From Deltaproteobacteria bacterium (lineage in GTDB: Bacteria > Desulfobacterota > Syntrophobacteria > Syntrophobacterales > Syntrophobacteraceae), in assembly GCA_012517315.1 (NCBI GenBank), contig JAAYVE010000018.1:1-64000 (forward strand): 64,000 nt of DNA, given 5' to 3'. A program made the position numbers and the translations under genes. Below are positions 5,607 to 52,749 of the stretch, piece by piece (the first letter of the stretch is position 1; each line of letters starts with the position of its first letter). The notes beneath the pieces were generated by a model. It saw nothing but the letters and a program-made list of their open reading frames with translations. It had not been told where the DNA came from and made no database searches.

Positions 5607-8192
<2,586 letters not shown>

Positions 8193-32510: not shown

Positions 32511-32912
32511 TTTTCGTTGCCTCCTGTGCCACTGTTTTGCCCTTGCCCCCACGGTAATGCCTTATTTGATGGAATTCAAGCCGCCGCCCGGAGCGATCCC
32601 TTTCATGGTCGGGGATTCACAAACCGGAAATGCCATACGACAGGGTGAATCCTCGGCGGGAAACTGCCAATGCTTGTGATTCCATTGCTCCTTGGCTTTT
32701 TCCAGCGGGGCAGGTCTCTGTGTGTCGGGGCGAATGGGGTTCGGGTGCTCGACGGGAGGGTGTGACGCAGGCGTTTCGGGGACGGATTTTCATGAGAATT
32801 TGTGCACAAAGAGCACTCGACACGGGGACTGTTTTTCCGTAAAATGAAAAATCGAGGTTTTCTGTTCGAGCGCCTGTTCATTCGGAAACACTGTGGAGCA
32901 AAGGAGTGGAAG
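32511..32912. other. Divergent intergenic region upstream of fumarase
   Basis: 402 bases. Holds the fumarase promoter at 32817-32845; I see no other gene or clear site. Confidence 0.5.
32817..32845 (+). promoter_or_regulatory. Sigma-70-type promoter for fumarase
   Basis: TCGACA (32817-32822), a 17-base spacer and TAAAAT (32840-32845), each 5/6 to consensus, 67 bases upstream of the start. Confidence 0.65.
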
Positions 32913-34529
32913 ATGCCAGAGTTCAAATACCAAGACCCGTTCCCCCTCGCCAAAGACAACACCCAGTATCGACTCGTCACTAAGGATCACGTGTCCGTGG
33001 CCCAATTTGACGGCAAGGAGATCCTCAAGGTGGAACCCGAGGCCCTGACTCTTCTCGCCAACGAAGCCATGCGGGACGTTTCTTTTCTCCTTCGCCCTTC
33101 TCACCTGGAAAAGGTGGCGGCCATCCTAAACGATCCGGAGTCTTCCCCCAACGATCGTGGTGTGGCCATCGCCATGCTACGCAATGCCGAGGTGGCGGCG
33201 GAGGGGATTCTCCCCCTTTGTCAGGATACCGGCACGGCGACTATCGTCGGCAAGAAGGGGCAGCAGGTGTGGACCGGCGCCCCGGACGAGGAATACCTCA
33301 GCAAGGGGGTTTACAAGACCTATACGGAGGAAAACCTTCGTTATTCCCAGACCATACCCCTGACCATGTACGACGAGGTGAATTCGGGCAACAACCTGCC
33401 CGCTCAGATCGACATTTACGCCACCGAGGGGATGGAGTACAAGTTCCTCTTCATTGCTAAAGGGGGGGGCTCCGCCAACAAGAGCATGCTGTACCAGGAG
33501 ACGAAGGCACTTTTGAACCCTGCGAGCCTCGAGAAGTTTCTCGTGGAGAAGATGAAGAGTCTCGGAACGGCTGCATGTCCGCCCTATCACCTGGCGTTTG
33601 CGGTGGGTGGAACTTCCGCTGAAGCGTGCCTCAAGACGGTAAAGCTTGCCAGTGCAGGCTACCTGGACAACCTTCCCACGAAGGGAAACGAAGGGGGCCA
33701 GGCATTCCGGGATGTGGAAATGGAGGAGAAACTGTTGCAGGCCGCGTACAAATGCGGGCTGGGCGCGCAGTTCGGGGGCAAGCATTTCGTCCTGGACGTG
33801 CGGGTGATCCGCCTTCCCCGCCACGGAGCATCCTGCCCTGTTGCTATGGGGGTTTCCTGTTCCGCCGACAGAAACATCAAGGCGAAAATCAACAGAGACG
33901 GCATCTGGGTGGAGGAACTGGAACGCAACCCCAGCCGCTTCATCCCCGAAAAATACCGTGGGAAGCATGAGCATGGTGTGGTGAAGATCAATCTCAATCG
34001 CCCCATGAAAGAGGTTCTTGCTGAGCTGAGCAAGTATCCCGTGACGACGCAACTCTCCCTCACTGGTACCCTGGTGGTGGGTCGTGATATCGCCCATGCC
34101 AAGCTCAAGGAGCGGATCGACAAGGGTGAGGGGCTTCCCCAGTACATGAAGGACCATCCCATTTACTATGCAGGACCTGCCAAGACCCCCAAGGGGATGG
34201 CATCCGGTTCCTTCGGTCCCACCACGGCTGGCAGAATGGATTCGTACGTGGACCTCTTCCAGTCCCATGGGGGGTCCATGATCATGATCGCCAAGGGCAA
34301 CCGCAGTCAGCAGGTGACCGATGCCTGTAAGAAGCACGGCGGTTTCTACCTGGGCTCCATCGGCGGTCCTGCGGCGCTCATTGCCAAGGAAAACATCAAG
34401 AAAGTGGAAGTGCTGGAATTCCCGGAACTAGGCATGGAAGCGGTTTGGAAGATCGAGGTGGAAGACTTCCCGGCGTTCATCCTGGTGGATGACAAGGGGA
34501 ACGATTTCTTCAAGCAGATCGGTTGCTGA
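32913..34529 (+). CDS. fumA: Fumarate hydratase, class I (iron-sulfur)
   Basis: Reversible hydration of fumarate to malate. It is a single 538-residue chain, i.e. the fused alpha+beta form of the oxygen-labile [4Fe-4S] class I enzymes. Seen are [17 protein letters not shown] (first cluster cysteine), [30 protein letters not shown], and the C-terminal beta part with [28 protein letters not shown] and [13 protein letters not shown] 32913 follows AAGGAG; the open frame further upstream overlaps the promoter and is not coding. It is monocistronic, with a strong terminator. It would serve the TCA cycle or the methylmalonyl-CoA pathway. Confidence 0.96.
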
Positions 34530-34573
34530 AACCCTTTGCGGGTATTCAGTCCGCGAAAGGAAAGGATAAGCCG

Positions 34574-34611
34574 GCCCCCTGCGCCACAAACGGCACGGGG
34601 GGCTTTTTTTT
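34574..34611 (+). terminator. Intrinsic terminator after fumarase
   Basis: A GC-rich hairpin (GCCCCCTG...CGGGGGGC, one G-T pair and one mismatch inside) is followed by eight T residues, 45 bases after the stop. Confidence 0.85.
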
Positions 34612-34620
34612 GTGCTGAGG

Positions 34621-36243
34621 TTACAGGATGTCGAGGGGGATCCAGTAGCCCTCCGAGGACAGGCTTTTCTTTTGGAAATCCAGCCCAAGGACGTGGGACC
34701 CATAGGCCCCGATGCGGCGATTGATGTTGTAGGTGATGGGCGGCGTGAGCCCCGTTTCGAATTGCATCATGCCGTCCATGGCCTTGATGAATTTTTCCCG
34801 GCTCAGCTGTCGACCGGTTCGCTTGAGCCCCTCCACGAAGATTTTCGCGGCGCAGTATGATGAAATTTGGGCGGCCAGGTGTCTTTCCGGGAGTTTGCGG
34901 GAGGCGCGAAAGCGGCTGAAATCCTTTGCACCGGGCCCGGTGTAGTCTAGAGGGGCCGTGGCGTAGGCCAGGTAGACGCGGTTTCCCCAGTTTTCGAGGA
35001 TCTGAAAGAGGTCTTCACCTGCGGAGGAACCGGGCAGGTACAATTGGGGCGACCACTCGATTCTGTCCGCTTCCTGGACCATTGCCTTGATCTCTTCCCA
35101 TGTGCCGAGATGGATCACCACTCCTGTATCGCGCTGTTTCAAGGTCCCGACAAAAAGGTGCGGGGAGAGGGTTCCGCCGGCGGTTTCAATTTTTTCCAGT
35201 CTTTTCCAGCCCAGTTTCCGCGCCTGCCTCTCAGCGGCATCGAGGACGGCCTCGGGAGTCTCTTTGGATGAGTAGACAACGGCGGCGGAGCCTGTCGGTC
35301 CTCGGAGCTTCTCCCTTGCGAAGATGAGCATGGCGCGAACCTGTTCCGTGATCCCCGAGTAGATGTAGAAAGTGAATCGGTTGAGGAGGTTCACGTCGGC
35401 GGGTCGGATCGTGAACGGGCCCACCACCGGGACTTCCAGTTCCTCGGCGAGGCTTGCGATTGCATCTTCCGCCCCCGCCACGAAGGGACCCACGAGGGCG
35501 AAAATGTCCTCGCTCTCCATGAGTCGCCTGGCGGCCTCCAGCGGAGAGGCGGCGGTTTCCTCCAATTCCACCGGATGGAGCTCCAGGCGACGGCCGTAAA
35601 CACCTCCCCCGCGGTTGATGTCCTCGAAGAATCCCTTCAGGACCGACTCCATGGACTTTCCCATGGGGGACAGTCTCCCTCCCAGGGGGAGAAAGGTGCC
35701 CACCCGGATGGAGGTTTCCTCCAGGCCGGGATCGAGGACGGTGCCGATGCGCCGGATATAGGCAATGAGGTCGGCCATGTCCGCTTCCGACATTGTGTAG
35801 CGGGGCATGGACACGTCCAGTTCGCGGCCCGCAGGGTCCAGTCCCTGGGAAATGGCCCGGGCCAGCGTCTCCTCGGTGTATGGGGGGTGTTCCCGCCCTG
35901 TGATGTGCCGAACGCCGTAGGGTTTGGTCAGTTCCTCCCAAGTGATGGTGGTCGCCGTCACCCCGCTTTCCACCAATCCGATGCCGTCATGGCCGTGGCA
36001 GTTGATGCAGGGAAGGGACACTCCAGGGGCCACCATTTGGGACTTCCCCACCCTGGCCGTGATCTCTCTTCCGGAAGGGCTTACTGTCTTGACATAGATC
36101 TGCTTACCGCGCCTTTCCTCTTTGGAGAGCTTGGCGCCCCACGCATGGGCGAAAAGAGCAAGAAGGATGACGGAGGAGAGTACCGCGCTAACGAATCCCT
36201 GAGGAAAGGGCTTTTCGCCCCGGCTTTGCATGGGGTTGCTCAC
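34621..36243 (-). CDS. c-type cytochrome fused to a branched-chain-amino-acid-binding-like periplasmic domain
   Basis: 540 residues. A signal anchor or signal peptide (hydrophobic about 20-35) is followed by a cytochrome c domain with one heme site (CINCHGHDGIG, about 79-83) and an axial Met in MPRYTMSEADMADLIAYIRR. From about residue 178 there is a Leu/Ile/Val-binding-protein-like (type I periplasmic binding) domain: VGTFLPLGGRLSPMG, ALVGPFVAGAEDA, VPVVGPFT, and VYLAYATAPLDY. GTG 36243 has AGAGGAG upstream; a GTG at 36288 and an ATG at 36231 are alternatives. It is third in line behind the beta-propeller and multicopper oxidase genes. It may couple ligand sensing or delivery with electron transfer; the substrate is unknown. 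No ABC permease or ATPase genes are near. Confidence 0.88.
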   Translation of the reverse strand: MSNPMQSRGEKPFPQGFVSAVLSSVILLALFAHAWGAKLSKEERRGKQIYVKTVSPSGREITARVGKSQMVAPGVSLPCINCHGHDGIGLVESGVTATTITWEELTKPYGVRHITGREHPPYTEETLARAISQGLDPAGRELDVSMPRYTMSEADMADLIAYIRRIGTVLDPGLEETSIRVGTFLPLGGRLSPMGKSMESVLKGFFEDINRGGGVYGRRLELHPVELEETAASPLEAARRLMESEDIFALVGPFVAGAEDAIASLAEELEVPVVGPFTIRPADVNLLNRFTFYIYSGITEQVRAMLIFAREKLRGPTGSAAVVYSSKETPEAVLDAAERQARKLGWKRLEKIETAGGTLSPHLFVGTLKQRDTGVVIHLGTWEEIKAMVQEADRIEWSPQLYLPGSSAGEDLFQILENWGNRVYLAYATAPLDYTGPGAKDFSRFRASRKLPERHLAAQISSYCAAKIFVEGLKRTGRQLSREKFIKAMDGMMQFETGLTPPITYNINRRIGAYGSHVLGLDFQKKSLSSEGYWIPLDIL

Positions 36244-36337
36244 AGGCCGCTCCTCTTGCGATGTTCTTTGCGCGTTCCCCCTTTTCACGGGGAGAAAAGT
36301 GCCCGATGCCTCTCCGTGGCCATGCCGCAGGAATGCG

Positions 36338-38311
36338 TCACTTGGTGGCGTTGAGGTTCAGATGGGGCATCTTGTGCATCAGGGCGTCCCTGGAGGGAGA
36401 CTCGAAAAAGACTTTGTAGTAGCCCGGTTCCGCAGCCAGGAGTTCCACCTGGTAGACGCCGTCCTGGGACGGTTCGACCGGAATCCTGGATTGGGATGTC
36501 CCCGGCATGAGAACGAGCAGAGCCGTCAGATCCTGAAGGTCTTTAACGGCCTTGCCGCTCAAGGTGTCTTTCACCCGCATCTTCAGGGAGAAAGGAGTCC
36601 CCACTCGGATGTTTCTCTCCTGGGTGAGGAATTCAATGGTCAGTGGAACATGGACCTTCCTCGGGATGGCGGGGTTGGGCTTTACAGAGATTTCAAAGCA
36701 GTGGTAAAGGCGGGGCGACTCCATGAGGAAGGCCACATCGAACACGCCGCTGTGAGGCAGTCTGAGCACCGAGGAGTAGAAGCCGGGTTTGGTCTCCTTG
36801 AGACTTCGGTCCACCACCAGAATGCCTTGGGGCTCGCCCGGATAGTTCTGAAAGGTCCCCATAGGGGCAAGCATTCCCTCCATGTAATAATAGACATTTC
36901 TGTCGGCGGGGTTGGCGATGAGAACCACGTCGAATTCCGGGGTGGGGGTGATCACCCGGGTGAGCCCGATTTGGTTCGCGTGCCCGGGTGCATCCTGGCC
37001 GATGGGGATCTTCACCACGGGAAGCTTTTCCATCTTCTCGATGAGGCTCAACTGCAAAGCGTTGACCTGGCTGGACCCGAGAGACCGGACGTATGCATAG
37101 GTTGCGCTGAAGCCGACCTGGTCCGGTCCCGGTTCCACCTGGACCGTGTGGAGGACCCGGTTCACGGAGACGTCGAGAACGTGGACGAGGTTCTCCTTAT
37201 GGTTCAGGACGAAACCCCAACGCCCGTCCGGACTGAATCGAATGGTCCGAATCCCGGGCTGCAGGTCGAGGGTCGCGGTGATTTCCTGTCTTTTTCCGTC
37301 TACGGCTACGACTTTCCCATCTTTCTCGTGGACGACGTAGAGGGCTTTGGCTCTCGAGGAGAAAGCGGCTGAAACGGGCATTTCCCCTGTCCTGACGTCT
37401 TTCACCTTCCGAAGCCCGGGGACGTCGATGACGGAGACGGTCCCCTCGTCCTGGTTCGTCACAAAGGCAAAGGCGCTGTCGTCCGAGAAATCAATGACGT
37501 GGTGGCCCCTCCCCGTTTCGATTTTGGCGACCACTTGGAGCCCTGAGGGGTCGATTACCGTCACCCCGCTGAAAAGCAAAGGACCGGCAGGTCCGTCATT
37601 GCCCACCCAGAGGTACTTTTCGTCGGGTTGCATGGCGATGCGAACAGGGTTTTCGGCAACGGCCAGATTCTGCATGACTTTCCAGTTTGCCGTGTCTGTC
37701 ACCGCCACTTGGTTGACCTTGGGCAGGGTGACGAAGAGCTTTTTCGTGTCCCGGGTCAACACCCAATCCTTTCCCGGAGCCTTCAGGGGAATGGTTGTCA
37801 CGGTCTTGGACACGTACATTCCCAATTGAGGGTTCAGCACCGTGATGCTGGGGCGGTCGTTCATCACCAGAATGAAGTAGGAGGTGAGATCGATTTCCGG
37901 CTGGTAAGCCAGACTTCCCTGGAGGAACTGGCTGATCTTCTCCTTGCAGGTCATGGCCATGCCCCCGTCGGTTTTCGATGTGCCGGAAGACGCCTTGGTG
38001 TCGATCCAAACCGCCGGCCTGAGTCCCGACATGGGGACGCCGGTTGCCGTATCCACCGCTTGGAACGCGATGGAGATGTCCTCTCCGTCCATGAGATCGT
38101 GGATTTTGTTTTCTCCGGTGAGGCTTTCCACCCTCATCTCCACAGAGATGCCGCCCTTCACCACTCGGGCTGGGGATTCCTCAACCTTTTCTCCCCCAGC
38201 CTGGGAGGGCCCGGATTCCCCCATCGTCGCGGCTGTTGCCGGGACAAAAGAAAAAAGGCCGAAAAGCCAAAAAACCGACGCTGGCAAAAACAAACTCTTT
38301 TTTCGGAACAT
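36338..38311 (-). CDS. Exported YVTN-type beta-propeller protein
   Basis: 657 residues with a Sec signal peptide (MFRKK, hydrophobic about 7-22, cleavage near ATA-AT). The N-terminal about 150 residues are a beta-rich module (GGISVEMRVESLTG...). The centre (about 150-470) holds repeated blades such as KYLWVGNDG, AFAFVTNQDEGTVSVIDVPGLRK, ALYVVHEKDGKVVAVD and WGFVLNHKENLVHVLDV, which are YVTN/cytochrome-cd1-like beta-propeller units. The C-terminal part is again beta-sandwich-like (FLTQERNIRVGTPFSLKMRVKD). No CxxCH heme site is present. ATG 38311 has GGAGG upstream. It lies between a multicopper oxidase gene and a cytochrome-fused binding protein on the same strand and is likely a scaffold or metal/cofactor-binding partner. 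Confidence 0.85.
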   Translation of the reverse strand: MFRKKSLFLPASVFWLFGLFSFVPATAATMGESGPSQAGGEKVEESPARVVKGGISVEMRVESLTGENKIHDLMDGEDISIAFQAVDTATGVPMSGLRPAVWIDTKASSGTSKTDGGMAMTCKEKISQFLQGSLAYQPEIDLTSYFILVMNDRPSITVLNPQLGMYVSKTVTTIPLKAPGKDWVLTRDTKKLFVTLPKVNQVAVTDTANWKVMQNLAVAENPVRIAMQPDEKYLWVGNDGPAGPLLFSGVTVIDPSGLQVVAKIETGRGHHVIDFSDDSAFAFVTNQDEGTVSVIDVPGLRKVKDVRTGEMPVSAAFSSRAKALYVVHEKDGKVVAVDGKRQEITATLDLQPGIRTIRFSPDGRWGFVLNHKENLVHVLDVSVNRVLHTVQVEPGPDQVGFSATYAYVRSLGSSQVNALQLSLIEKMEKLPVVKIPIGQDAPGHANQIGLTRVITPTPEFDVVLIANPADRNVYYYMEGMLAPMGTFQNYPGEPQGILVVDRSLKETKPGFYSSVLRLPHSGVFDVAFLMESPRLYHCFEISVKPNPAIPRKVHVPLTIEFLTQERNIRVGTPFSLKMRVKDTLSGKAVKDLQDLTALLVLMPGTSQSRIPVEPSQDGVYQVELLAAEPGYYKVFFESPSRDALMHKMPHLNLNATK

Positions 38312-38621
38312 GCTGCCTCCCCCCGGTGGCCCTCGGCCACCCTCTTTCCGGGGTTTTCCGACCGTTGGATTGTGCTCTATCGAGATGCGCTCCTGTCGCC
38401 ACCTGTGCGTTAAAGCCTGCGGACCGGATGAGAGGACGCGGCCGCAAAAAACGCCCATGTTCGCCTCGGGGTGTCCAAGAAGGCATCATACCCCTTTGTT
38501 CCTGTTCCGATCTACTTTCAATCGATGCGATACCTTCTTTTTTCGTGGACGTACACCGTCACGTGAAAAGGGTGCATATCCCAGAGGACTGCACCCTTCT
38601 GTCAAAGTTGGTTCGTTGCAA
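38312..38621. other. Intergenic region between multicopper oxidase and beta-propeller genes
   Basis: 310 bases with the terminator at 38568-38598. A TATGAT-like -10 is visible on the minus strand near 38470 but without a good -35, so a separate promoter is not established. Confidence 0.45.
38568..38598 (-). terminator. Intrinsic terminator or attenuator after the multicopper oxidase gene
   Basis: Perfect 9-bp stem AAGGGTGCA / TGCACCCTT with a TTTTC tail on the minus strand, 24 bases after the stop. It should reduce read-through into the beta-propeller gene. Confidence 0.65.
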
Positions 38622-41600
38622 TCAGTTGACTCTCAGGATTCCCCAGACCCCGCCCACGAAATGGGGCGAAGAGAAATCCCTGTAGAGGTAATCCCCCCGG
38701 ATGCCGAACCTGCCTCCGGCACTCCTCAGGATCAGGTTCCAGTGGGCATACGGGCCGTGCCCTTCCTGGGATCCCTGCACCTGAGACTTGGAGTTGAACC
38801 CAAGCCTGGTGGAATCGAACTGGTACGGAAGGCGCTCCCAACCATGCCCCTGGATGACCGGAACGTGATTGCGGGCGTGTCCGCCGGCCTTGAGGACGCG
38901 GAATCGGACCTGATGCCTCGCCCTGGCCAGGAAAACCGGAGTTTGAGGATCGGCACCACCTGTGATGGAATTGGAGAGAGCCGCCGAGAAATCCACGGCG
39001 TCCGTCTGTGCCCCCGTGGCATTGGGAGCGTACCCCAGTCGGAACCAGAGAGGTTCGGCCCTGTAGTTCAGACCCTCGTTTCCTGAATCCTCCGCGCCTT
39101 CCTCCACCACGGCCGGCGGAATGGGGATCCGGTTGGCGTCCATGAGGTTCACGTCGTCCTGGAACATGAGGACAAATTCCCTGAACGTTCCCGAATCCGG
39201 CGAAAACACGGTGGCTTGGGCCCTGGAGTTCGTGTCTTCAAGCCACTGGGCGTTGCGCGGTTCGATGATAAGGGCTCCGACAGCCCCCTTGTTGCTGTGC
39301 TTCATGGGATCTGCGGGAATCAGATTGGTGGCCCCGAATTCCACAGGAGTTGCGACCAGTTCCTCGCGTTCGCCGAATCTGAGGGTCCCGGCATACCACC
39401 GGTAGGTGATCACGCCGCCCGGGCCCACCGTCTGGTTGGCCGCCGGGGCCGCCGGGTTGATGCGGTTCGGGTTCAGCCCCACGTTGGTCCCGTCATGGAG
39501 GGACACATCGTAGGCCACCAGTTGGGCATGGAGTCCCACCTGGGTGGACGGCCTAACCTGGTTGGCGTTGAAGTTGTCGATGAGAAAGGGCCAGTGATTC
39601 CACCCGGCCGGGTCTTCCAAGACATTGGGCAGGCGGTTTCGCAGCGTCACGTCGATGCATTCACCGGCAGCCGCACGAAGAATGAGCGGTTCCACGGGCA
39701 CCCCGGGCAGGAGCCTGCCGGAATCATCCAGGTCGGAGGAGCGCACATACAGGATAGCCGATGGATCGTGGAGCGGTCCGGGATTCCCCGCAAAAGCCCC
39801 CGTTCGACTGTTGTAAACCAAGGTTCCACGAGATCCACGGGGTGCGCCGGGCAAAGGAGGCAATGCCTCGGACGCGGCCACCGCCGTCACGTCAAAACGC
39901 CGCACCGGCGCCGTCCTGGGGCATACCCCGTTAAACTCCCGTGCGTTGTTGATGCGGATGGTCTCGGGCGGATTATTGGGCAAAGGCTTCAGTTCCACGC
40001 CGGAATGTTGCCGGTCATATGCCCTGAGGATTCCCCAAGTGCCGTTCCATTGGTCGTCCACCGATGCCCCGAACTTGTAGAGGAAGTCCGTGAAAGGAAA
40101 GCGAGGTGTCGTCTCGTTCAGAGTGGGAACGAGCGGGATGTTGAGTTCGAAGTGTTCCGCGATCCCCAGGTGCTGATGGTTGATGTACCCGGAATTGGGG
40201 GAATTGGTCTCCTGGAGCCAGGCAGCCCCGTGGATGGCCGCGTTGTGGGATTCTTCCGTTGCCCCGGTCCCCAACCTCATGACCACCCTGTCCCCGTAAA
40301 AGATTTTGAGGAGCGGCGTGAAGGGGTCCCCCCGCTGGGCCCCGGTGGTGAGGAAGTCACCGCCGAAGAAGTCGGGCTGAACATTGAGTTCAGGATTGGC
40401 CCGGTTGATGTCCGAGCGGTACACGAAGGCCAGGTCCCCGGCCAGGCCTGGGGACTGGCTCCCGGTCGCCGGGTTGTAGATACGATGGGCGATGGGTTCG
40501 TTTCGGTAGTTCACTAGCATGGTTCCAGGATCAGCGGCCGAAATGGCTTCCGGACAAGGGGGTGGATTGATGCCGTCAGGGCACACGTTGCTCCGGTTTA
40601 CCACGATGGGCAAGGGAGCCTGTTCCCTTGCCGGGCCGTTGATGACGAGCTGCGGATTGGCTTCACCCACCACCACGGTGCCCGAACCGGGTTCGGACAC
40701 ACCGAGAACGCTTCGGCTCGGAGCCGTGTCCGTCACCGCGAAGAGGGGCCCCGGTGCGTATGCCTGCTGAAAATCCGCCGTGAACATGAAGAATTCTCGA
40801 AAGCTCCTGCTGCTGTCCGGCGGAATGATATTTGCCTGGAAACTCGTGGGCCCGCCGTCTTCCCTCACACCCAGAGGTTCGCCCGTTTCCGCGTGGAGCC
40901 ACTGGGACCCCTCCGGTTCCACGCCCAAGAAGGCATAAAGGCCCGCCTGCTGATGGGTGGACGGTCCGAAGTGGTCGTGGGTGAACACGGTCCCGAGAGT
41001 CCTGTCCTCCCCCCTGTTGTTCATGGTCCGGTCGGCGTACCACCGCTGAAGAGTGGTCTGCGCCCCGTTTCTCAGTTCAAGGGGCAGGCCGGCGAAAGCC
41101 GGGTCGGGATGGGGCACGGGCTGAAGGTTGGTGTCCACCTGGCCGCTGATTCGAGTGAGGCCGCCACCGTGGTTGAGAGCCTCGATGCGCTCCCTCACCT
41201 CATGAGGGCTGAACGTGCCGTCTTCGTAGTTCCAGCCGTTGCCGGAACCGTCGGAGGAGGTCACGTCGAATTTCACCAAGTGAATGTGCTGGCCGATGAT
41301 GTCCGTGGGCGTCCGCACCTGGTAGTCGTCCATCTGGTAGACATTGGGAACCAGGTTGGTGTGATGGAAGGTGATGCAGTCATTGGAGTTGGCACGGAAG
41401 AAGAAGGGTTCCGGTGCCTTCTGCTTGTTCATGATGGCTTCCACGTCCTGCCAGTGCGCCAGGATGCGAGCCTGGTTGAAGTGCCATCCCACCTTGTTCA
41501 TGATCATGTCGAACTGGAAGGCGGCCCCCTTGATGATGCGTTCTACGCCGGTGGGTTCTCCCGAATCGTCGACGCACGGGTCAGCAAAAGGTGCTCCCGC

Positions 41601-43751
41601 GATGGGCGGCAGGCCGTTGGTCTTGAACCCGCCGGGGTCGTTGGCGGCAGCTCCTGCGGGTGTCCCATCGGGATAGAACGTGGGGTGAAAACGCAGGGCG
41701 TGAAAGGACATGGCTGCCTGTTCCAGGGGCGTGCCCGATTCGGGCAGTTCCCTCGCGGCCATCTCGATGAGCACCTTATCAAAGCTCAGCCGTGTCTCCG
41801 CGTGGTCATAGACGGACTGCTCGATTCCCGATGTCACCACGTGACGGGGCAACCCCCCGTCGTGGAGCGTGTCCAGAGGAGACCTGGGGGGCCTGTGGCC
41901 TGCAATGCCCGGGATGAAGAAGGGATATCCGGGGTTCCCCAGGGGCTGACCGGCGAGGGGAGTCACTTGCACCTGCCCCCCGGGTTCCCCCGCTCTCTGG
42001 ACGATGGTCACGTTGGCTCCCGGTCTGGGGGGCATGGGGCGGCCCGGTAGAGGCACCACGGCGGGAATGGGGGTGCCGGTGGCGATTTCCGCGTCAGGGA
42101 GTGCCCGGCTTCCTGGGGCCGGCCGGCCCTCGGCGTCCAGCTGCGTCCCCGTCTCCAGCACATCGTGCACCCGCCAGAGGGCCCACATGCCCATGGCGAA
42201 GTGCGGATAGAAATGGCAGTGAAAAATGGAGTCCCCTGCCGTGAGGTTGCGATTGCCGCTGCCGTTGTAGGCAATTTCGTATGTGTAGCTGGCCCCGGGA
42301 CCCAGTCCCTGGACGTCCACGTAATTGGAGTTGTCGTCATCGGGGGTGAACAGCCACTGATGGGCGTGGAGGTGAAACATGTGGTGTTCCTTGCCCGCGT
42401 GGACGTTGCGCATTTTCACATGATCGTTGAGGTAGCTGTGAAAGACGTTGGAAGGATCGTCGGCGTAAAATGCCTTGGTGGCTTTCGGCCCCGGCTGCAG
42501 AAAAGCTTCGGCGCCAATGAAGTCCCCGGGGCCTGCCGGAATGTCCACCACCATGGCGGGATCCCCCACCGCCCAGGAAGTGAGGAAAAACTCCTCGAAT
42601 TTGCATTCGGTGCAGTCCCACATGGGTCCCACTTTGAGCCGGTTTCCGATGATCTCAGACCCGATGCCCCCGGTTCCGTAGTTCACGGCGAACGCATCCC
42701 GCACCGGATGCAAGGTGTGGCTGAGGGGATTCTGGTTCACCCCTCCAACCTCACCTTCCTCCTCACCCCCTCCCGTGAAGTTGGGCGTGAATTGGGGGAA
42801 TGCCTGTGTGGCGTTGATCTCATCGTGAAACACAATCGTGAATTCCCTGTACGGCTCAAGGCGTGTGCGGGCGGGTAGATCGTCGGATCCCGGCGGAACG
42901 GCCACATCCACCCTGGGGTAGGTCCCCGGGATGAAGTTGCCTCTCCCCGGCCCCGTGATGATGGCGTTGATGTCGCTGTGCACCAGTTCATTGTTTGCGG
43001 TGAGCATCTTCAGGATGGGGCGCCCCGCCAGGGGGTGGCCTGCGGGGTAAACGGCGTCGTAATCGATGATGGGGTGACCCGAAGCGGTCTGATCGATGGT
43101 GGCCAGGGAAAGGTCGTCCTCGGTCACTTGGCTACGGTAATATTCCGCGCCAACCGGCTGAACGTTGACCGTACCGAAAAGCCCAACGGAAAAGGCGCCG
43201 GTTCCCTCCTCTCCGCCGCCGAGGGTGCTTCCGCTGTAGAGCAGGTAGGCACCCTCACGTTCCGCTGTGTAGGAATACGTGGCCCTGCCCCCCGGAGGCA
43301 CCAGGCTGCTTCGGTTTCGCCCCACATGGGAACCCATGCTGCCCACGCCACCCACTAGGCTCAAGCCCATGACCTGAACCGAAGCGGTCCGGGTGGCCGG
43401 TTGGCCGGGGGCTGCAAGGGGTGTCAGAAGATTTTCGAAATGGATGGTGAGGGTGTCTCCCACGTTCATGCGGAGCACGATGGGGCGGGGTCTCTTGCCC
43501 GATCGCAGCTGTACGTTGCCCGGTACCAGCCCGAGCGCTGGGTTCCGGGGAACCACGTCCCCTTTGAGGGCGTAGATCATCCCATTGGGAATCATGGCGC
43601 CGAGTCGGTTCAACATGATGGAATGATCCAGTGCTACCACATTGGCTGTGACGTTCTTGGCGGAAGCTGTGGAAACCACAAGGGGGACCGCCAATAAACC
43701 AAACGCCGTTGCCAGTGGCCATCTCGTCAGTTTGCGTCCGAACCTGTTCAT
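38622..43751 (-). CDS. Giant exported multidomain multicopper oxidase
   Basis: 1709 residues, several times the usual 450-650 of three-domain laccases. It has a Sec signal peptide (MNRFGRK, hydrophobic about 10-26, cleavage after SASA). Many cupredoxin-like segments follow. Copper motifs: HHMFHLHAHQW (456-466), the type 1/type 3 motif HCHFYPHFAMGM (511-522), FHHTN (796-799), HIH (822-824) and THDHFGPSTHQQAG (924-937). A later domain has HNAAIHGAAW and HQHLGIAEHF, and the last domain has a degenerate copper loop (YRDFSSPHF). CTECKFEEFF is a CxxC without heme His. The layout recalls MnxG-like manganese oxidases and ceruloplasmin, but the substrate is unknown. ATG 43751 follows GGGAGGG; the longer frame to 43829 is unlikely. 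It heads a three-gene exported set. Confidence 0.92.
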   Translation of the reverse strand: MNRFGRKLTRWPLATAFGLLAVPLVVSTASAKNVTANVVALDHSIMLNRLGAMIPNGMIYALKGDVVPRNPALGLVPGNVQLRSGKRPRPIVLRMNVGDTLTIHFENLLTPLAAPGQPATRTASVQVMGLSLVGGVGSMGSHVGRNRSSLVPPGGRATYSYTAEREGAYLLYSGSTLGGGEEGTGAFSVGLFGTVNVQPVGAEYYRSQVTEDDLSLATIDQTASGHPIIDYDAVYPAGHPLAGRPILKMLTANNELVHSDINAIITGPGRGNFIPGTYPRVDVAVPPGSDDLPARTRLEPYREFTIVFHDEINATQAFPQFTPNFTGGGEEEGEVGGVNQNPLSHTLHPVRDAFAVNYGTGGIGSEIIGNRLKVGPMWDCTECKFEEFFLTSWAVGDPAMVVDIPAGPGDFIGAEAFLQPGPKATKAFYADDPSNVFHSYLNDHVKMRNVHAGKEHHMFHLHAHQWLFTPDDDNSNYVDVQGLGPGASYTYEIAYNGSGNRNLTAGDSIFHCHFYPHFAMGMWALWRVHDVLETGTQLDAEGRPAPGSRALPDAEIATGTPIPAVVPLPGRPMPPRPGANVTIVQRAGEPGGQVQVTPLAGQPLGNPGYPFFIPGIAGHRPPRSPLDTLHDGGLPRHVVTSGIEQSVYDHAETRLSFDKVLIEMAARELPESGTPLEQAAMSFHALRFHPTFYPDGTPAGAAANDPGGFKTNGLPPIAGAPFADPCVDDSGEPTGVERIIKGAAFQFDMIMNKVGWHFNQARILAHWQDVEAIMNKQKAPEPFFFRANSNDCITFHHTNLVPNVYQMDDYQVRTPTDIIGQHIHLVKFDVTSSDGSGNGWNYEDGTFSPHEVRERIEALNHGGGLTRISGQVDTNLQPVPHPDPAFAGLPLELRNGAQTTLQRWYADRTMNNRGEDRTLGTVFTHDHFGPSTHQQAGLYAFLGVEPEGSQWLHAETGEPLGVREDGGPTSFQANIIPPDSSRSFREFFMFTADFQQAYAPGPLFAVTDTAPSRSVLGVSEPGSGTVVVGEANPQLVINGPAREQAPLPIVVNRSNVCPDGINPPPCPEAISAADPGTMLVNYRNEPIAHRIYNPATGSQSPGLAGDLAFVYRSDINRANPELNVQPDFFGGDFLTTGAQRGDPFTPLLKIFYGDRVVMRLGTGATEESHNAAIHGAAWLQETNSPNSGYINHQHLGIAEHFELNIPLVPTLNETTPRFPFTDFLYKFGASVDDQWNGTWGILRAYDRQHSGVELKPLPNNPPETIRINNAREFNGVCPRTAPVRRFDVTAVAASEALPPLPGAPRGSRGTLVYNSRTGAFAGNPGPLHDPSAILYVRSSDLDDSGRLLPGVPVEPLILRAAAGECIDVTLRNRLPNVLEDPAGWNHWPFLIDNFNANQVRPSTQVGLHAQLVAYDVSLHDGTNVGLNPNRINPAAPAANQTVGPGGVITYRWYAGTLRFGEREELVATPVEFGATNLIPADPMKHSNKGAVGALIIEPRNAQWLEDTNSRAQATVFSPDSGTFREFVLMFQDDVNLMDANRIPIPPAVVEEGAEDSGNEGLNYRAEPLWFRLGYAPNATGAQTDAVDFSAALSNSITGGADPQTPVFLARARHQVRFRVLKAGGHARNHVPVIQGHGWERLPYQFDSTRLGFNSKSQVQGSQEGHGPYAHWNLILRSAGGRFGIRGDYLYRDFSSPHFVGGVWGILRVN

Positions 43752-43945
43752 GAATGCCCTCCCATAGGACACGGGAGATGAGGTGCCATGCCCCAAAATT
43801 CCCCCGAAATCTCCCGGGTCATCATGCACGCCGAAGTGGCGGTTGCATACCTGCGTTCAGTTTTCGTTTCGGCCTCTGAAGCCACATGGCCTCTCCCCGG
43901 AGCCGCCTTGAAATGAAAACTGCGGAAGCCATGAAGCGATGGACG

Positions 43946-43957
43946 GTTCCATGGAAC
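43946..43957. promoter_or_regulatory. Perfect palindrome upstream of the multicopper oxidase gene
   Basis: GTTCCATGGAAC, 12 bases, about 200 bases upstream of the start codon and inside the predicted leader. A second odd palindrome, TTGCT-C-AGCAA, is at 43974-43984. Possible regulator sites; chance cannot be excluded. Confidence 0.25.
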
Positions 43958-44075
43958 TCCCTGCACCTCAATGTTGCTCAGCAAAGATGCTTTCGTAAAT
44001 GCGTAAAAATACCTAATTGCCACGTGAACAGTGGGATTTGCACCAGGCAGGAAATCTTCATGAACTCTCCGGAAA

Positions 44076-44104
44076 ATGAAAGATGATCGTGGGGATTGGG
44101 TCAA
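44076..44104 (-). promoter_or_regulatory. Candidate promoter for the multicopper oxidase gene
   Basis: On the minus strand there is TTGACC (44099-44104), a 17-base spacer and TTTCAT (44076-44081). It would give a leader of about 320 bases. Confidence 0.35.
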
Positions 44105-44198
44105 GCGAAATTCAGGGAGGGTTCATTGACTTGAGGTCTTGGGAAGTGCCGGATCGCTCCCGGAGCGAAGGATGCCAGGAGCGGCTGGCCCTGTGAAG

Positions 44199-44233
44199 GA
44201 GGGGGGCGACGTCGCCGAGGGGATGCCCCCCTC
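44199..44233 (-). terminator. Stem-loop after the small unknown gene
   Basis: GAGGGGGGC (44199-44207) pairs perfectly with GCCCCCCTC (44225-44233); the region also includes the palindrome GGCGACGTCGCC. It lies 18 bases after the stop of the gene at 44251-44730. Confidence 0.55.
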
Positions 44234-44250
44234 TTGAGGTTCAAATGCCG

Positions 44251-44730
44251 TCAAACGTTCCAACCCCTGACCTCCCCGTCCCAGTCGATGATCATGAGGA
44301 GGCCGCCCCCTCTCAAGTCACCGTCCACCGCCCTTTTCCTTATGGCGAAATCCCAGGGCTTCTGGAGGTCGTGTTCCTCGATGTTCGTATTGGCCTTGCA
44401 CCAGTTGACGGCCTTCTCACGGCTGGAAGCGATGTGGGCGATCACGGAGGAGTAGGTGAATCGATTGCTTTCAGTGAGGCCGTTGACAATGTGCTGTCGG
44501 AACTCCACAAGGTATATTTCATCACCACTGGTGTCCCTTGGACCGGGGGAATCATCCCGTTGGAAGGTGGGCTCCGACTTGTGGCGTATGAACTCGAGCG
44601 TCTCAGCTACGGCGGCTTCCCTGGCCTTTTCTCCGTCGTCTCCCTGGTTGGTGTGACGTTGAAAAAACGAGTCGATGGCCCTCTCGAGAACCGAGATCAT
44701 CTCCTCCAGCGACAGTCTGTATTCCGGCAT
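44251..44730 (-). CDS. Small protein of unknown function
   Basis: 159 residues, no signal peptide or membrane segment. It is acidic, with an N-terminal helix (LSLEEMISVLERAIDSFF), a middle region with EIYLVEFRQHIVNGL, a single Cys (NWCKANTN), and a C-terminal strand (LLMIIDWDGEVRGWNV). ATG 44730 follows AAAGGA at normal distance. I do not recognise the family. It is on the same strand as the multicopper oxidase but separated by 499 bases and a stem-loop, so it is probably its own transcript, divergent from the GAF sigma-54 activator. Confidence 0.6.
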   Translation of the reverse strand: MPEYRLSLEEMISVLERAIDSFFQRHTNQGDDGEKAREAAVAETLEFIRHKSEPTFQRDDSPGPRDTSGDEIYLVEFRQHIVNGLTESNRFTYSSVIAHIASSREKAVNWCKANTNIEEHDLQKPWDFAIRKRAVDGDLRGGGLLMIIDWDGEVRGWNV

Positions 44731-45093
44731 GGATGCATCCTTTCCATTTTCACAAAAAGTGGTGCTCTTCAGCGGGTCAGGGTTTGACGATGGGGTGCGA
44801 GCCGCTGCACAAGACAGTGCCGCAACCTTCCGGCAAGGCTCGGCGCAAGCGCGACCGCCACTGCATCGTCAGTATATTCGGGTGTTACAGCGACGGAGTT
44901 GAGAGGAATCCTCAAAGGCAACCCCTGATAGAAGCCCCTTTCTTGCTTGACCTCATCCCGGAAGTCCTGCAAGGATAAGCATGGAACCTGGGAGAGAGGC
45001 ATGCCGTTTGAGGGTGCCCTGTCTTTGGTTCCCCTTTTCCTCTTTCCTTATCAGGCTCCTCAGAAGTTGTTCGCCCATGGAGGATTGAAGAAC
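44731..45093. other. Divergent intergenic region upstream of the GAF activator
   Basis: 363 bases without a clear promoter or operator. An in-frame ATG at 45001 with GGGAGAG upstream could extend the activator by 31 residues. Confidence 0.4.
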
Positions 45094-46638
45094 ATGCCCC
45101 GAAGACCTTTCGATTTCTGCAAGGTTTTGTCGGAAGAACTGGATCCGGAAAAACTGCAGAAGAAGTTCCTGGGTGCTCTTTTGGACCTGCAGAATGTGGA
45201 GCGGGGTTCCATCTGGGTGAAAGAGGAGGGGGGCTACCGCTGTATTGAGGCTGCCGGTCTTCAAAGCGAACAGGTGAGGGGATTGACCATCAGTGCTTCC
45301 CATCCGAGCATTGTGGGATGGGTGATCGAAAACGGAAAAATGACCATCGGGGAGCCCGGCAAGGATGCCCGCCACTACAAGGAAGTGGAAGCGGGGCTGA
45401 TTGTCAAGAGCAGGCTCATCCTCTGCTTTCCTTTGTTCCTTAGAAACGGGCAGGTGTATGGTGCGGTGCAGCTCATCGACACGAGTGCAGGTGGAGACCG
45501 GCTCAACCTCAACAAGGACTATCTGGATCTGCTGCAGCAGATCATCGACATCGGCTCCATTTCCCTGGCCAACTCCCTGGTCTATTCCGAGCAGGTGCGG
45601 GAGAACCGCTTCCTGAAAGAGCGGCTGGCGGAGATGCGGGGTGGCGGCCCCGTCATCGGGAGGAGCGAAGCATTCGCCAAGGTCTTGAAGATCGCCGGGG
45701 ATTATGCGAGAACAGATTTTCCCGTGCTCATCACCGGGGAGAGCGGGACGGGCAAAGAGCTCGTCGCCAATGAGATGCACCGCCGAAGCGGTCGAAGTGA
45801 GAAGCCTTTTTTCGTGCAGAATTGCAGCGCCATACCGGAAACGTTACTGGAAAGTGAACTGTTCGGCTATCGCAAAGGGGCGTTCACGGGGGCATTGAAG
45901 GACAAGGCGGGGCTGTTTGAAGCGGCGGACGGCGGAACCCTTTTCCTTGATGAAATCGGGGACATGCCCTCACACTTGCAGGCGAGGATGCTCCGGGTTC
46001 TCCAGGACGGGGAGATCAAGCCCCTTGGGGGGACAAAGGCCACGAAAGTGGATGTGCGGATCATATCGGCCACCAACAAGGATCTACGGGACGAAATCGA
46101 AAAGGGACACTTCCGGGAGGACTTGTTCTATCGTTTGAACGTCTTGCCGCTCCATCTTCCTCCCCTCCGCGAGCGGAAGGAGGACATCCCCCTGCTGCTG
46201 GAGCACTTCATCCAGAGGGAGTCACGAAAAATGGGGATGCCACCGAAAAGGCTGGCGAAAGACGCCGTAGACGCACTGGTGAGCTATCCATGGCGAGGGA
46301 ATATCCGGGAACTGGAGAACTTCGTCAAGCACATCCTAGTGGTGGTGAGGGGGGAGCTCATCCGCCTGGAGGAACTGGCGCCCCACCTGGATCTGGATTC
46401 GGAAAACCAATCCGGCGGTCTTGAACCGGCCCAAGTTCCAGAGGGGGAGAAGTCGGGAACGGCCGTTCGGCGGGCCGGATCTTTCTTCGAGGGCTATACC
46501 TGGACGGAATTGGAAAGGGATTATGTCCTGTTTCTCCTGGAGAAGAACAAGTGGCACATCACCCGGGCGGCCAAAGAGGCCGGGGTGAACCGGAGCACCT
46601 TCGATTCCAGGATGAAGAAGCTGGGCATCAGGAGATGA
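45094..46638 (+). CDS. GAF-domain sigma-54-dependent transcriptional activator
   Basis: 514 residues. The N-terminal GAF domain (about 10-160; VERGSIWVKEEGGYRC, IVGWVIENGK, CFPLFLRNGQVYGAVQLID) is followed by an AAA+ domain with Walker A GESGTGKE, an intact GAFTGA loop, Walker B GGTLFLDEIGDM and the arginine region, then a Fis-type helix-turn-helix (HITRAAKEAGVNRSTFDSRMKK). It activates sigma-54 promoters on an unknown signal. ATG 45094 follows GGAGG at ten bases; ATG 45001 is the alternative. It is followed at 48 bases by a Cys-rich unknown gene and a methyltransferase-like gene, which it may be co-transcribed with. Confidence 0.92.
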   Translation: MPRRPFDFCKVLSEELDPEKLQKKFLGALLDLQNVERGSIWVKEEGGYRCIEAAGLQSEQVRGLTISASHPSIVGWVIENGKMTIGEPGKDARHYKEVEAGLIVKSRLILCFPLFLRNGQVYGAVQLIDTSAGGDRLNLNKDYLDLLQQIIDIGSISLANSLVYSEQVRENRFLKERLAEMRGGGPVIGRSEAFAKVLKIAGDYARTDFPVLITGESGTGKELVANEMHRRSGRSEKPFFVQNCSAIPETLLESELFGYRKGAFTGALKDKAGLFEAADGGTLFLDEIGDMPSHLQARMLRVLQDGEIKPLGGTKATKVDVRIISATNKDLRDEIEKGHFREDLFYRLNVLPLHLPPLRERKEDIPLLLEHFIQRESRKMGMPPKRLAKDAVDALVSYPWRGNIRELENFVKHILVVVRGELIRLEELAPHLDLDSENQSGGLEPAQVPEGEKSGTAVRRAGSFFEGYTWTELERDYVLFLLEKNKWHITRAAKEAGVNRSTFDSRMKKLGIRR

Positions 46639-46686
46639 ACCGGGCTTCTGGGAGATCCTGAATTCTCAAGGGTGCGGAGGCAATCG

Positions 46687-47205
46687 ATGGCACCGGGAAA
46701 CCGGAATCACGCCGGATCTGATGAGCCCATACTGAAAAAGATCTCCGTTGCACGTGAACTCAGGGAGGCGTGGGGCGGCGCCATGGCGGCAGACCCCCGG
46801 GTGTCCGGCCTTCTCATGTCCCTGAAAGAGGCTTCCAGGAGATCCGGTCGGGTCATGGCGCAATTGGGCGTGGTGGCAGCCTGTGCCCGGTGCGAGGAAC
46901 TGGAAGGGGGCAGTTGCTGCGGGGCGGGGATAGAAAACCGTTACTCCCCGGTGCTCCTTTTCATCAATCTCCTTCTTGGATGCGAGCTTCCCGCCTCCCG
47001 AAGGTTCCTCAACAGCTGCTTTTTCCTGGGGACGCAAGGATGCACCCTGGCGGCGAGGCATGTCCTATGCATCAATTACCTGTGTCCTGCCCTCCGGAGA
47101 ATGCTCGAACCCGATGCCCTCGCCCTTCTGCAGGGAACAACGGGTGAGGAAATGGACACGATCTTCGTCCTGCACGAGTGCATCAAGCAAAAACTGACGG
47201 CTTGA
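46687..47205 (+). CDS. Cysteine-rich protein of unknown function
   Basis: 172 residues, soluble. After a helical N-terminal 70 residues there are conserved-looking cysteine motifs: AACARCEEL, GGSCCGAGIE, LLGCELP, CFFLGTQGCTLAARHVLCINYLCP. The nine cysteines and the GIENRY segment suggest metal or iron-sulfur binding, but I do not recognise a named family. ATG 46687 follows GCGGAGG at six bases; a GTG at 46672 is weaker. It sits between a sigma-54 activator and a methyltransferase-like gene on the same strand. Confidence 0.72.
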   Translation: MAPGNRNHAGSDEPILKKISVARELREAWGGAMAADPRVSGLLMSLKEASRRSGRVMAQLGVVAACARCEELEGGSCCGAGIENRYSPVLLFINLLLGCELPASRRFLNSCFFLGTQGCTLAARHVLCINYLCPALRRMLEPDALALLQGTTGEEMDTIFVLHECIKQKLTA

Positions 47206-47220
47206 GAACGCCTCAAGATT

Positions 47221-47841
47221 ATGCCGAGCTACAACTCTCTCCTGTCCGAAACCATCAGGCACATTGCGGAATTTTACGATGCCCGGAAATACGGGTACGA
47301 GGGCGTTGAAGGGTATCGCAAATCCACGGACCTTCGGAAGCTGGCTGTCATCATCGAGGAAATGGGCCGGCTGGAGATGATCCATCCCGGGCGAACCGTC
47401 TTCCTGGACTTGGGATGTGCCGACGGACGGGTGAACCTCCTTTTCAGTCACTTTGTGAAGCATTCCATCGGCATCGAGATCGATCCCCTGATCCTGGGGG
47501 AATACAAACCCCGCAAGCTGGCTTTGAGTCGTGAACTGGAAGAGAGGCGCCTCCAGCCTTTTCCGGAAAACGTCCGCTTGTTTCAGGGCAGTTCCCTCGA
47601 AGCCGAGACATACGCCAGGATCGCGGAGACGACGGGAATCCGCTTCGACCAATTCGACCTCTTTTACACCTACATCACCCTTCACGACCTCTTCGGGGAA
47701 AAGATCGCGTCGGAAGCCCAAAAAGGGGCCCTCTACCTAGTATACGGGTTTCACAAGGTGCTGCCCCGCTACGAGGGACTTGAGATCCTGGTTCCCGACA
47801 TAGGGGGCCAGTCCATCGCCGCCGTCTACAGGAAAGTGTGA
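47221..47841 (+). CDS. SAM-dependent methyltransferase-like protein
   Basis: 206 residues. The nucleotide-binding motif I is clear (VFLDLGCADGRVNLLF, about 60-75), followed by an acidic motif II position (GIEIDPLILGEY) and a motif IV-like FDQFDLFYTYITLHDLFG. The substrate is unknown; the helical N-terminus (HIAEFYDARKYGYEG) is not diagnostic. It starts 15 bases after the Cys-rich gene, so the two form an operon. It ends before a long inverted repeat shared with the convergent binding-protein gene. Confidence 0.78.
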   Translation: MPSYNSLLSETIRHIAEFYDARKYGYEGVEGYRKSTDLRKLAVIIEEMGRLEMIHPGRTVFLDLGCADGRVNLLFSHFVKHSIGIEIDPLILGEYKPRKLALSRELEERRLQPFPENVRLFQGSSLEAETYARIAETTGIRFDQFDLFYTYITLHDLFGEKIASEAQKGALYLVYGFHKVLPRYEGLEILVPDIGGQSIAAVYRKV

Positions 47842-48099: not shown

Positions 48100-48999
48100 T
48101 CACTTCTTGGCGATAACACCCTGGTGCACAATCTGCATGCAGTCGGCAACGGGCGTGTAATCCAGGGGCTTTCTCCAGCCCTGGATCTTGGCGCTGACCG
48201 CCGCAGGTTCGGAAGGGGTGAGGGAATTCAGGGCCTGGGCCACCTCGTTTCTCACATTCGCGGGCACATGGGCGACGGCGACCATGGGGAATTCCGGGTA
48301 CAACGGGGTGGAATGAGCGACGGGGAAGTTGTCGGCAATAGGGTTGATGAGTCTGAAGTCTTCCATCTTCACCTTTCCCTCATGGGCCATTTCTTCGAGG
48401 GTCCCAGCGATGACCGCGCCTCCGTCGACCGCTCCGTTCACCACAGCGTAGACCACATGTTCAACCGATTTCGTTTCCCGCACAGCCTTGAAATCCCGGT
48501 CCGGATCGATCCCCTTCTCCAGGAACAACCTTTTAACAATCAGCCAGCCGGCGAAAGAACTCTTGGCCCGTGTCATGAACTCCTTGCCTTTGAAGTCTGC
48601 AAGGGTCTGAACGGGGCTGTCTTTACGGACGAGAATGCTGGACGCCACATATTCCATCGGCTGATTCTTGAAGGACTTGACCAGGGTGGCCACTGCCTGG
48701 GCTCCACACTGCCGGTTCAATTCGGTGTAGATGGACGGGTTGGAGAAAAAGAAGTCGACCTTTCCCTCTTTCACCGCTTCCATGAGGCCCTTGTCGTCGA
48801 GGGGAACGGCGGTGAATTTCTTCCCAAGTTTTGCCGTCAGGTATTCGGCGGTGGGTCTCCATTCGGTAATGGCCTTGTCGGCCCCTTTGTATGCCTGTAT
48901 GCCGATCTTGTATTCCTGTGAAAGGCAAATGGAGGGACTCAGGCACAATGCGGCAATAACCATGTTTCGGCAGATCTTCTTCGTGAGGTTCCTGATCAT
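48100..48999 (-). CDS. PhnD-like periplasmic substrate-binding protein (orphan)
   Basis: 299 residues with a Sec signal (hydrophobic about 12-24, cleavage near LSQ-E). The fold signature is that of phosphate/phosphite/phosphonate-binding proteins: YKIGIQAYKGADKAITEWRPTAEYL, VDFFFSNPSIYTELN, ASSILVRKDSPVQTLADFKG, and GAVDGGAVIAGTL. No ABC permease or ATPase is adjacent. PhnD-like proteins also act as sensory subunits for kinases (as in TtrS or TorS-type systems), so a sensing role is as likely as transport. It is divergent from fdhA across 705 bases. Confidence 0.82.
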   Translation of the reverse strand: MIRNLTKKICRNMVIAALCLSPSICLSQEYKIGIQAYKGADKAITEWRPTAEYLTAKLGKKFTAVPLDDKGLMEAVKEGKVDFFFSNPSIYTELNRQCGAQAVATLVKSFKNQPMEYVASSILVRKDSPVQTLADFKGKEFMTRAKSSFAGWLIVKRLFLEKGIDPDRDFKAVRETKSVEHVVYAVVNGAVDGGAVIAGTLEEMAHEGKVKMEDFRLINPIADNFPVAHSTPLYPEFPMVAVAHVPANVRNEVAQALNSLTPSEPAAVSAKIQGWRKPLDYTPVADCMQIVHQGVIAKK

Positions 49000-49704
49000 A
49001 GCAGCCTTTCTCTTTTCAAACGCTTTGCAATGACGGGCTGGAACCGTTGCCCGCCTCCTCCGGTCTTTCCCGAGCGGTATCGGCAGCCATGAACATGGAC
49101 TTGAGTCAAAATACGGAATGGTGTTGACAGTTCAGTGCATCACCCTTTAAAGTCTTCTTGGTTCATTTCGGCAGTGCGGCCTGTGATTTTGCAGGGCTTC
49201 TTGCCGCGCGGAACAGACAAACCTAGTGTGTGAGTGGCGGCCCGGATATCGTGGTGCCGAGTCATGCCCGCTCAGCCGACGTATGGAGGCACGACGTATT
49301 CATGCTTTCATGCAGCATCGCCATCTTCTTTTCCCCCCACGGTTACCTCTGACTCCCTGCCTGAACCCCAGGTGCTGGGACATGCTCCGGATTTGCCTGC
49401 ACATCCGTTCATAGCCAACCACCGATCAGAAACATCGACATGCAGGGGAAGACCGTTCGGCGGATGAACCGCCGGGAGCCCCGAGTGGAAGCATTCGGCT
49501 GCGGCTGGAAAGTCGATCAACCCGTCTGCCGCCGTGAAACCGGGGAGCGTTGGAGGGATTCCTCCCATGGGAACTGGGTGTCACCGACGTTTCTCCGATC
49601 CTCGGCAGGACTCAGTGCCTGGATGCCTTCCGCCTTCACCAGGATGTTTGCCATGGGGGAGGAGGAATGGGTGCCGATCGTGAGGAAGGAGGGTGTATTG
49701 TTCT
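49000..49704. other. Long divergent intergenic region upstream of fdhA
   Basis: 705 bases. Contains the candidate promoter, two hairpins (CGGCGG-ATGAA-CCGCCG at 49458-49474 and GGAGG-GATT-CCTCC near 49555) and short open frames without support. The length allows a structured leader but I cannot name one. Confidence 0.4.
49124..49153 (+). promoter_or_regulatory. Candidate promoter upstream of fdhA
   Basis: TTGACA (49124-49129), 18-base spacing and TAAAGT (49148-49153). The leader to fdhA would be about 545 bases. Confidence 0.35.
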
Positions 49705-52700: not shown

Positions 52701-52749
52701 GAGGATCCCCGAAACCAAGTCATTCATGGTGAATGTTCGCAAAGTCTGA
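49705..52749 (+). CDS. fdhA: Formate dehydrogenase alpha (catalytic) subunit, Cys-type, periplasmic
   Basis: 1014 residues. It has a Tat signal (SRRQFMKIS at 4-12), then the [4Fe-4S] motif CPYCGVGCGL and later Cys (ALCAKG). It binds a pterin Mo or W cofactor and oxidises formate or reduces CO2. The active-site position that is selenocysteine in many homologues is Cys192 here (codon TGC 50278-50280, in RLCHSSTVA), followed by the conserved FGRGAMSNHW. ATG 49705 is 12 bases after AAGGAGG; a GTG at 49693 abuts the ribosome site. It is co-transcribed with fdhB. No gamma (cytochrome b) subunit follows, so the dimer should be soluble in the periplasm. Confidence 0.95.
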   Translation: MKVSRRQFMKISGATMGGLVLGGLGFDLKPVEVHAGTLKIANTAESTTICPYCGVGCGLVVHTTKDGSKKIINIEGDPDHPINRGALCAKGSALYQLATTENRSRKVLYRAPFSDRWEEKSWEWALTEIAKRVKKTRDASFRATNSKGQVINRTDGIAHIGSAALDNEECWTIQAMMRALGIVYLEHQARLCHSSTVAALAESFGRGAMSNHWIDIANSDCILIMGSNAAENHPISFKWVTKAMNSGATLISVDPRFTRSSSKAHIYAPIRTGTDIAFLGGLIRYILENNLYHKDYVIHYTNAGFILDKGYDFKEGLFSGFDAKTSSYDKSHWAFERDEKGNPRKDRTLKNPRCVFQQLKKHYARYTLEKVSEITGTPRESLLKVYKAYAATGKPDKVGTVMYAMGWTQHTVGVQYIRTMCIVQLLLGNMGLAGGGVNAMRGESNVQASTDHALLFHIWPGYLKTARASNDSLAAYNKKWTPVSNDPMSANWWGNYPKYSVSFLKAMFGDAATRENDFGYHWLPKIDDDKSYTWLDMFDAMYQGAFTGFFAWGQNPACSGANAGKTRKALANLDWMVNVNLFENETGSFWKGPGVDPKQVKTEVFFLPCACSVEKEGSITNSGRWMQWRYKAAEPPGDCKPDGDIMVELFERIRALYRKEGGAFPEPIVNLFFDYTTDGRFDAHKVAKAINGYFLRDVNIKGVEYKKGTLVPSFALLQDDGSTSCGNWIYCNSYTEKGNMAARRNPEDKSGIGLYSEWAWSWPLNRRIIYNRASVDPTGKPWDPKRAVIRWTGEKWEGDVPDGPWPPMLTADGKPNPEGRYPFIMQVEGHGHIFGPGLNDGPFPEHYEPLECPVEKNLLSAQLINPVLKHYQTDMDKRATCDPRFPFVGTTYRVTEHWQTGLMTRWQPWLVEAQPQQFCEMSEELASAKGIKNGDRVVVESIRGQVNAVAIVTKRFRPLKVAGHEIHQVGLPWCFGWITPKDGGDSSNLLTPSIGDANTRIPETKSFMVNVRKV

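Follow-up and report, generated by a model that had tools for sequence, protein, structure and literature searches.

Most work on manganese oxidases has dealt with aerobes. The Mnx enzyme of Bacillus is accompanied by MnxE and MnxF, neither of which is a propeller or a cytochrome. In Pseudomonas putida GB-1, the putative mnxG operon encodes MnxG, a YVTN propeller, two successive SCO1/SenC proteins, an amino-acid/amide ABC substrate-binding protein with a cytochrome c domain, and SurA (PMC11409713, Table 4; PMC8218464). Cytochrome c/periplasmic-binding fusions also adjoin the giant multicopper oxidase (MCO) in clusters of the mof/ompB type (PMC5566968). In our literature search, we came across no function assigned to the genes for the propeller and the cytochrome/binding protein that adjoin mnxG.

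A 64,000-nucleotide stretch of a Syntrophobacteraceae genome, referred to here as the window, carries a giant MCO followed by a YVTN propeller and a cytochrome c/substrate-binding fusion, as in an mnxG-type operon. The first-pass annotation of this DNA knew of no cluster that combines such proteins with this oxidase, a statement that the published P. putida operon and the fusions beside other giant MCOs overturn. The gene combination is already known from the mnxG operon; the unexpected part is its occurrence in a host of the sulfate-reducer type.

The three-gene block and its borders

Open reading frames, Pfam and NCBIfam identified three consecutive minus-strand genes: the mnxG-type giant MCO (38622–43751; 1709 aa), the YVTN beta-propeller protein (36338–38311; 657 aa) and a monohaem cytochrome c fused to a type-1 periplasmic binding domain (34621–36243; 540 aa). 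All three appear to be exported, judging by eye from their hydrophobic N-termini, and the initial description of three consecutive exported genes was confirmed to that extent. The fusion starts with GTG and has AGGAG upstream. No further convincing gene was found between the three frames, and the two SCO genes and the SurA/PPIC gene of the Pseudomonas operon are absent from the block. The MCO and propeller genes are separated by 310 bp containing a stable minus-strand RNA hairpin with a short U run (38560–38615; −20.9 kcal/mol, z −3.2, with 1 of 200 shuffles equally good), a possible attenuator or terminator, so a single transcript is not assured. No sigma-54 site was seen upstream of the MCO at 43752–44250 with up to 2 mismatches allowed, and sigma-54-like matches across the whole window were not above chance.

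The block is flanked by a fumarase gene and a 159-aa ORF (44251–44730). In the genus-mate G001, these two flanking genes lie ∼116 bp apart and the gene order continues further out; G001:C255 positions 434–2174, 2290–3009 and 3261–5985 correspond to window positions 32789–34529, 44251–44977 and 45106–47833, respectively. The interval 34530–44250 is therefore present in the host and missing from G001, and this empty site between the same flanking genes means that the three genes arrived in the host or left G001 jointly, as one block. Neither a common direct repeat of at least 10 bases nor a tRNA was found at the block borders.

The 159-aa ORF was considered as a module gene and set aside, as it is not conserved with the module. 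The neighbouring sigma-54 activator (44947–46638) was likewise considered as a module-specific regulator; this was weakened by G001, which keeps the activator without the module. Sigma-54 activators do adjoin the MCO at several other loci. Further along the window, a phosphonate-type periplasmic binding protein is encoded at 48100–48999, and the P. putida mcoA operon lists one too. A molybdopterin formate-dehydrogenase-like gene (49693–52749) has a selenocysteine tRNA (55590–55681) within a few kb.

Protein families, copper sites and phylogeny

Pfam sees the MCO weakly (Cu-oxidase_2, 21 bits, barely above the cut-off). The NCBIfam model of MnxG, NF041487, matched it in four stretches from residue 32 on with 1434.7 bits (E 0), short of the equivalog cut-off of 3100 that the P. 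putida control passes with 3892.9 bits. Membership of the MnxG family in the wide sense is seen in the match of the P. putida protein to residues 1–1708 of the query, in an alignment of six full proteins that also showed full-length homology, and in similarity to the solved MnxG structure (PDB 9bxa, E 4.7e-94). Identity to Pseudomonas MnxG is ∼41%.

Twelve putative copper ligands (H457, H460, H462, H511, C512, H513, H517, M522, H822, H824, H925 and H927), assigned by analogy with laccase motifs, were invariant in 85 homologues and would make up a type-1 site of two His, Cys and Met plus the eight His of a trinuclear site. With this apparently full set, electrons can reach O2 within the enzyme and need no external exit. 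The proposal that the cytochrome serves as the electron exit consequently lacks support; the proposed scaffold role of the propeller is unsupported as well. Among characterised proteins, the Mn oxidase MnxG is the nearest relative, which makes a metal our best guess for the substrate. This portion of the earlier idea of a metal- or small-molecule-oxidising chain held up, while the chain roles given to the cytochrome and propeller did not. The MCO sits on a long branch outside the Pseudomonas clade, so its substrate may differ from that of MnxG.

The propeller protein was recognised by Pfam (Cytochrom_D1/Lactonase), by YVTN repeats (TIGR02276) and by its homologues in MCO loci. It has an N-terminal domain and a C-terminal Ig/YtkA-like domain; C122, in the former, and H271 are invariant in 20 sequences. 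Its structural model (pLDDT 84) has 1l0q and nitrous oxide reductases as nearest folds, at low TM-scores. An assignment as a lactonase-type nitrous oxide reductase was rejected (51 bits against a cut-off of 700), the Foldseek TM of ∼0.4 to such enzymes reflecting the common propeller.

The third protein, which also has homologues in MCO loci, combines Peripla_BP_6 (4.6e-33) with Cytochrom_C and a single haem motif, CINCH, at residues 80–84 of P0003; its model (pLDDT 85) has a LivJ/LivK-like fold. Positions conserved at 90% number 31 of 134 in the cytochrome domain and 20 of 329 in the binding domain. A transport role is unlikely, given the greater conservation of the cytochrome domain and the lack of an ABC permease accompanying the fusion.

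Phylogenies were inferred as quick trees with long branches, and their groupings are to be read as such. The MCO paired with L053, a Desulfobacterales MAG (SH-aLRT 95), and not with the copies of G010, a genome of the same family; the propeller tree agreed in grouping with L053 (support 96). The fusion protein, which was not found at L053, grouped with one G010 copy (96). They point to differential loss or horizontal movement, and the host and G010 probably carry different MCO lineages.

Conservation and distribution of the module

A genome scan with six MCOs provided 80 loci, the best 80 of 534, as an uneven sample rich in Pseudomonas. Neighbourhoods were counted at the 68 of these best 80 loci that had at least 6 kb downstream: the propeller occurred in 64, SCO in 57 and the fusion in 54, and all three together in 54 of the 68. 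Incomplete cases among the listed loci include those of Methanoperedens, Geobacter, Pelobacter and the Desulfobacterales relative L053. The order MCO-propeller-SCO-(SCO)-cytochrome/binding protein is kept in Pseudomonas, Aromatoleum, Roseomonas, Acidobacteriota, Planctomycetota and Myxococcota, and in both complete copies of G010. As the same genes neighbour each other in dozens of genomes, the three-gene organisation is far beyond chance.

Co-occurrence across genomes, which had been proposed as a check on the module, was assessed in a phylum sample of 395 genomes, eight of which contain the MCO. The fused cytochrome-binding protein (>300 bits) was present in 7/8 genomes with the MCO and in 1/387 without it (Fisher p 2e-13); in that single MCO-less genome the fusion lies at a contig edge. 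Together with the shared neighbourhoods and the joint absence from the genus-mate, this bears out the earlier view of the three genes as one exported module. Accessory genes that are kept across many phyla and are jointly present or absent are part of the enzyme system and worth testing.

Among 59 other relatives of the host, the MCO was found in G010 only. This genome (L013, L014 and L015) contains two complete, diverged modules, whose MCOs occupy different positions in the tree, and a fragment of a third MCO close to the end of a contig. Giant MCOs of the MnxG family were also observed in anaerobes: L017, L020 (Methanoperedens nitroreducens), L029 (Jettenia ecosi), L030 (Geobacter), L033 (Pelobacter) and L066 (Bacillota). 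The module is complete in the Jettenia genome and in the Bacillota MAG; in Methanoperedens, only the MCO and propeller are present. In Methylobacter luteus (L049, 9938–20956), two MnxG-family MCO genes lie in tandem.

Just two SCO genes occur in the host; they lie side by side on another contig (G000:C33), next to a PPIC isomerase gene. A tree of 85 SCO domains places one of them with the first operon SCO, where it joins the operon SCO of G010 with 99% support, and the other with the second operon SCO. The PPIC protein matches the SurA-like gene that ends the Pseudomonas operons at ∼64–96 bits, which may reflect a shared domain only. Taken together, these findings suggest a six-gene mnxG-type set that is split over two contig locations in the host. 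Genes of the first SCO type (SCO-a) also occur alone in G003, G015 and G016, all of which lack the MCO, and the trio on C33 may therefore have its own history and not be a displaced half of the operon. No oxidase was found in the neighbourhoods of the lone SCO in G003 and G015. In G008, which has no MCO match, an SCO gene lies beside a truncated binding domain without the cytochrome (G008:C17:65530–66713, L158), a possible operon remnant.

Proposed function and relation to known systems

The host genome encodes dsrA, a cytochrome bd oxidase and a cbb3-type COX1/FixO pair. An organism carrying dsrA probably meets little free O2; with its bd and cbb3-type oxidases, this sulfate-reducer-type host is nonetheless equipped for O2 reduction, and an O2-dependent enzyme is plausible at interfaces. 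The anaerobic setting emphasised by the first-pass annotation is weakened accordingly.

We consider it probable (roughly 0.6) that the block is an mnxG-type manganese-oxidase module in Syntrophobacteraceae, in which an exported enzyme that depends on O2 and probably oxidises Mn(II) acts, together with accessory proteins, at oxic-anoxic interfaces. The giant MCO would be exported and loaded with copper by the SCO chaperones encoded elsewhere in the genome, and the PPIC-type isomerase would help it fold. Electrons from a reduced metal, with Mn(II)/Mn(III) as the likeliest source, would enter at its type-1 copper and move on to the trinuclear site to reduce O2 to water. For assembly, surface placement or electron exchange, the enzyme may have dedicated accessories in the propeller and the cytochrome/binding-protein fusion. 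During oxygen exposure at oxic-anoxic interfaces, such a system could yield Mn(III/IV) oxides and serve oxygen or metal detoxification. We count the deletion evidence from P. putida GB-1 in favour of a manganese oxidase (PMC11930936). Regarding the need for O2, sparse oxide formation by P. putida in closed chambers has been attributed by the authors to a lower O2 supply (PMC11930936).

A module devoted to periplasmic detoxification of oxygen or of copper and iron, as a cuprous or ferrous oxidase or an O2 scavenger to which Mn oxidation is incidental, would suit a sulfate-reducer-type host that has other O2-reducing enzymes, and many small MCOs act in this way. We regard it as unlikely, since in size, family and gene set the module resembles the Mn oxidase and not CueO-type enzymes, and no copper-efflux gene was seen in the block. 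Somewhat less probable still is an anoxic role akin to that of OmpB/OmpC in Geobacter sulfurreducens, in which the MCO would take part in extracellular electron transfer to metal oxides and the fused cytochrome would act as a relay between the cell and the MCO. Fe(III)-oxide reduction requires OmpB, itself a giant MCO, whose cluster likewise includes an SCO gene and a MofC-like cytochrome, a type of protein that combines cytochrome c with a periplasmic binding domain (PMC5566968); the window MCO family, moreover, is present in the anaerobes Methanoperedens, Jettenia, Geobacter, Pelobacter and Desulfobacterales. Gene content and sequence nevertheless point to MnxG, the copper set for O2 reduction is intact, the Methanoperedens, Geobacter and Pelobacter carriers have no cytochrome fusion nearby, and the window cytochrome has a single haem motif, with no multihaem conduit in the block.

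It is comparably doubtful that an mnx-type module runs without free O2 in anaerobes such as this host and the Methanoperedens, Jettenia and Geobacter-type carriers, a metal being oxidised with another acceptor via the fused cytochrome or electrons being delivered to metal oxides. The patchy occurrence of the MCO in the host's relatives, the empty site of the genus-mate, the location of the SCO genes outside the block and the bare SCO with truncated binding domain in G008 would all suit cargo that was acquired recently or is decaying and that currently plays no role in the host. Three frames intact over 9 kb, invariant copper ligands and the presence of the haem motif make this very improbable. 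The presence of the module in a dsrA-bearing host of the sulfate-reducer type, and of its relatives in Methanoperedens, anammox and Geobacter-type genomes, poses the question of whether metals are oxidised at or below the oxic-anoxic boundary.

Among the described systems, the YVTN protein of PQQ-dependent catabolism (TIGR03866) with its branched-chain-amino-acid-binding-like partner shares a YVTN propeller and a substrate-binding-like protein with the block. However, the host propeller, at 94 bits, falls short of the cut-off (287), the block has no PQQ dehydrogenase, and the host cytochrome is fused to the binding domain. In the mofABC cluster of Leptothrix and the ompB cluster of Geobacter, a giant MCO is likewise accompanied by a cytochrome c/periplasmic-binding protein and by an SCO or prolyl isomerase (PMC5566968); no YVTN propeller is described there, and the likeness drawn here is one of gene content. 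Bacillus MnxG (PDB 9bxa) is alignable over several cupredoxin domains, but has 1227 aa where the host MCO has 1709. The P. putida GB-1 mnxG operon differs in its MCO, to which the host enzyme is ∼41% identical, scoring below the MnxG equivalog cut-off, in its promoter PmnxG, whose sigma-54 site has no counterpart seen upstream of the host MCO, in the position of the SCO and isomerase genes, which the host has on another contig, and in its host, which is not of the sulfate-reducer type. It is nevertheless the operon whose genes 1, 2 and 5 make up the block in the window, in that order, and the host genome also has the two SCO genes and a PPIC isomerase.
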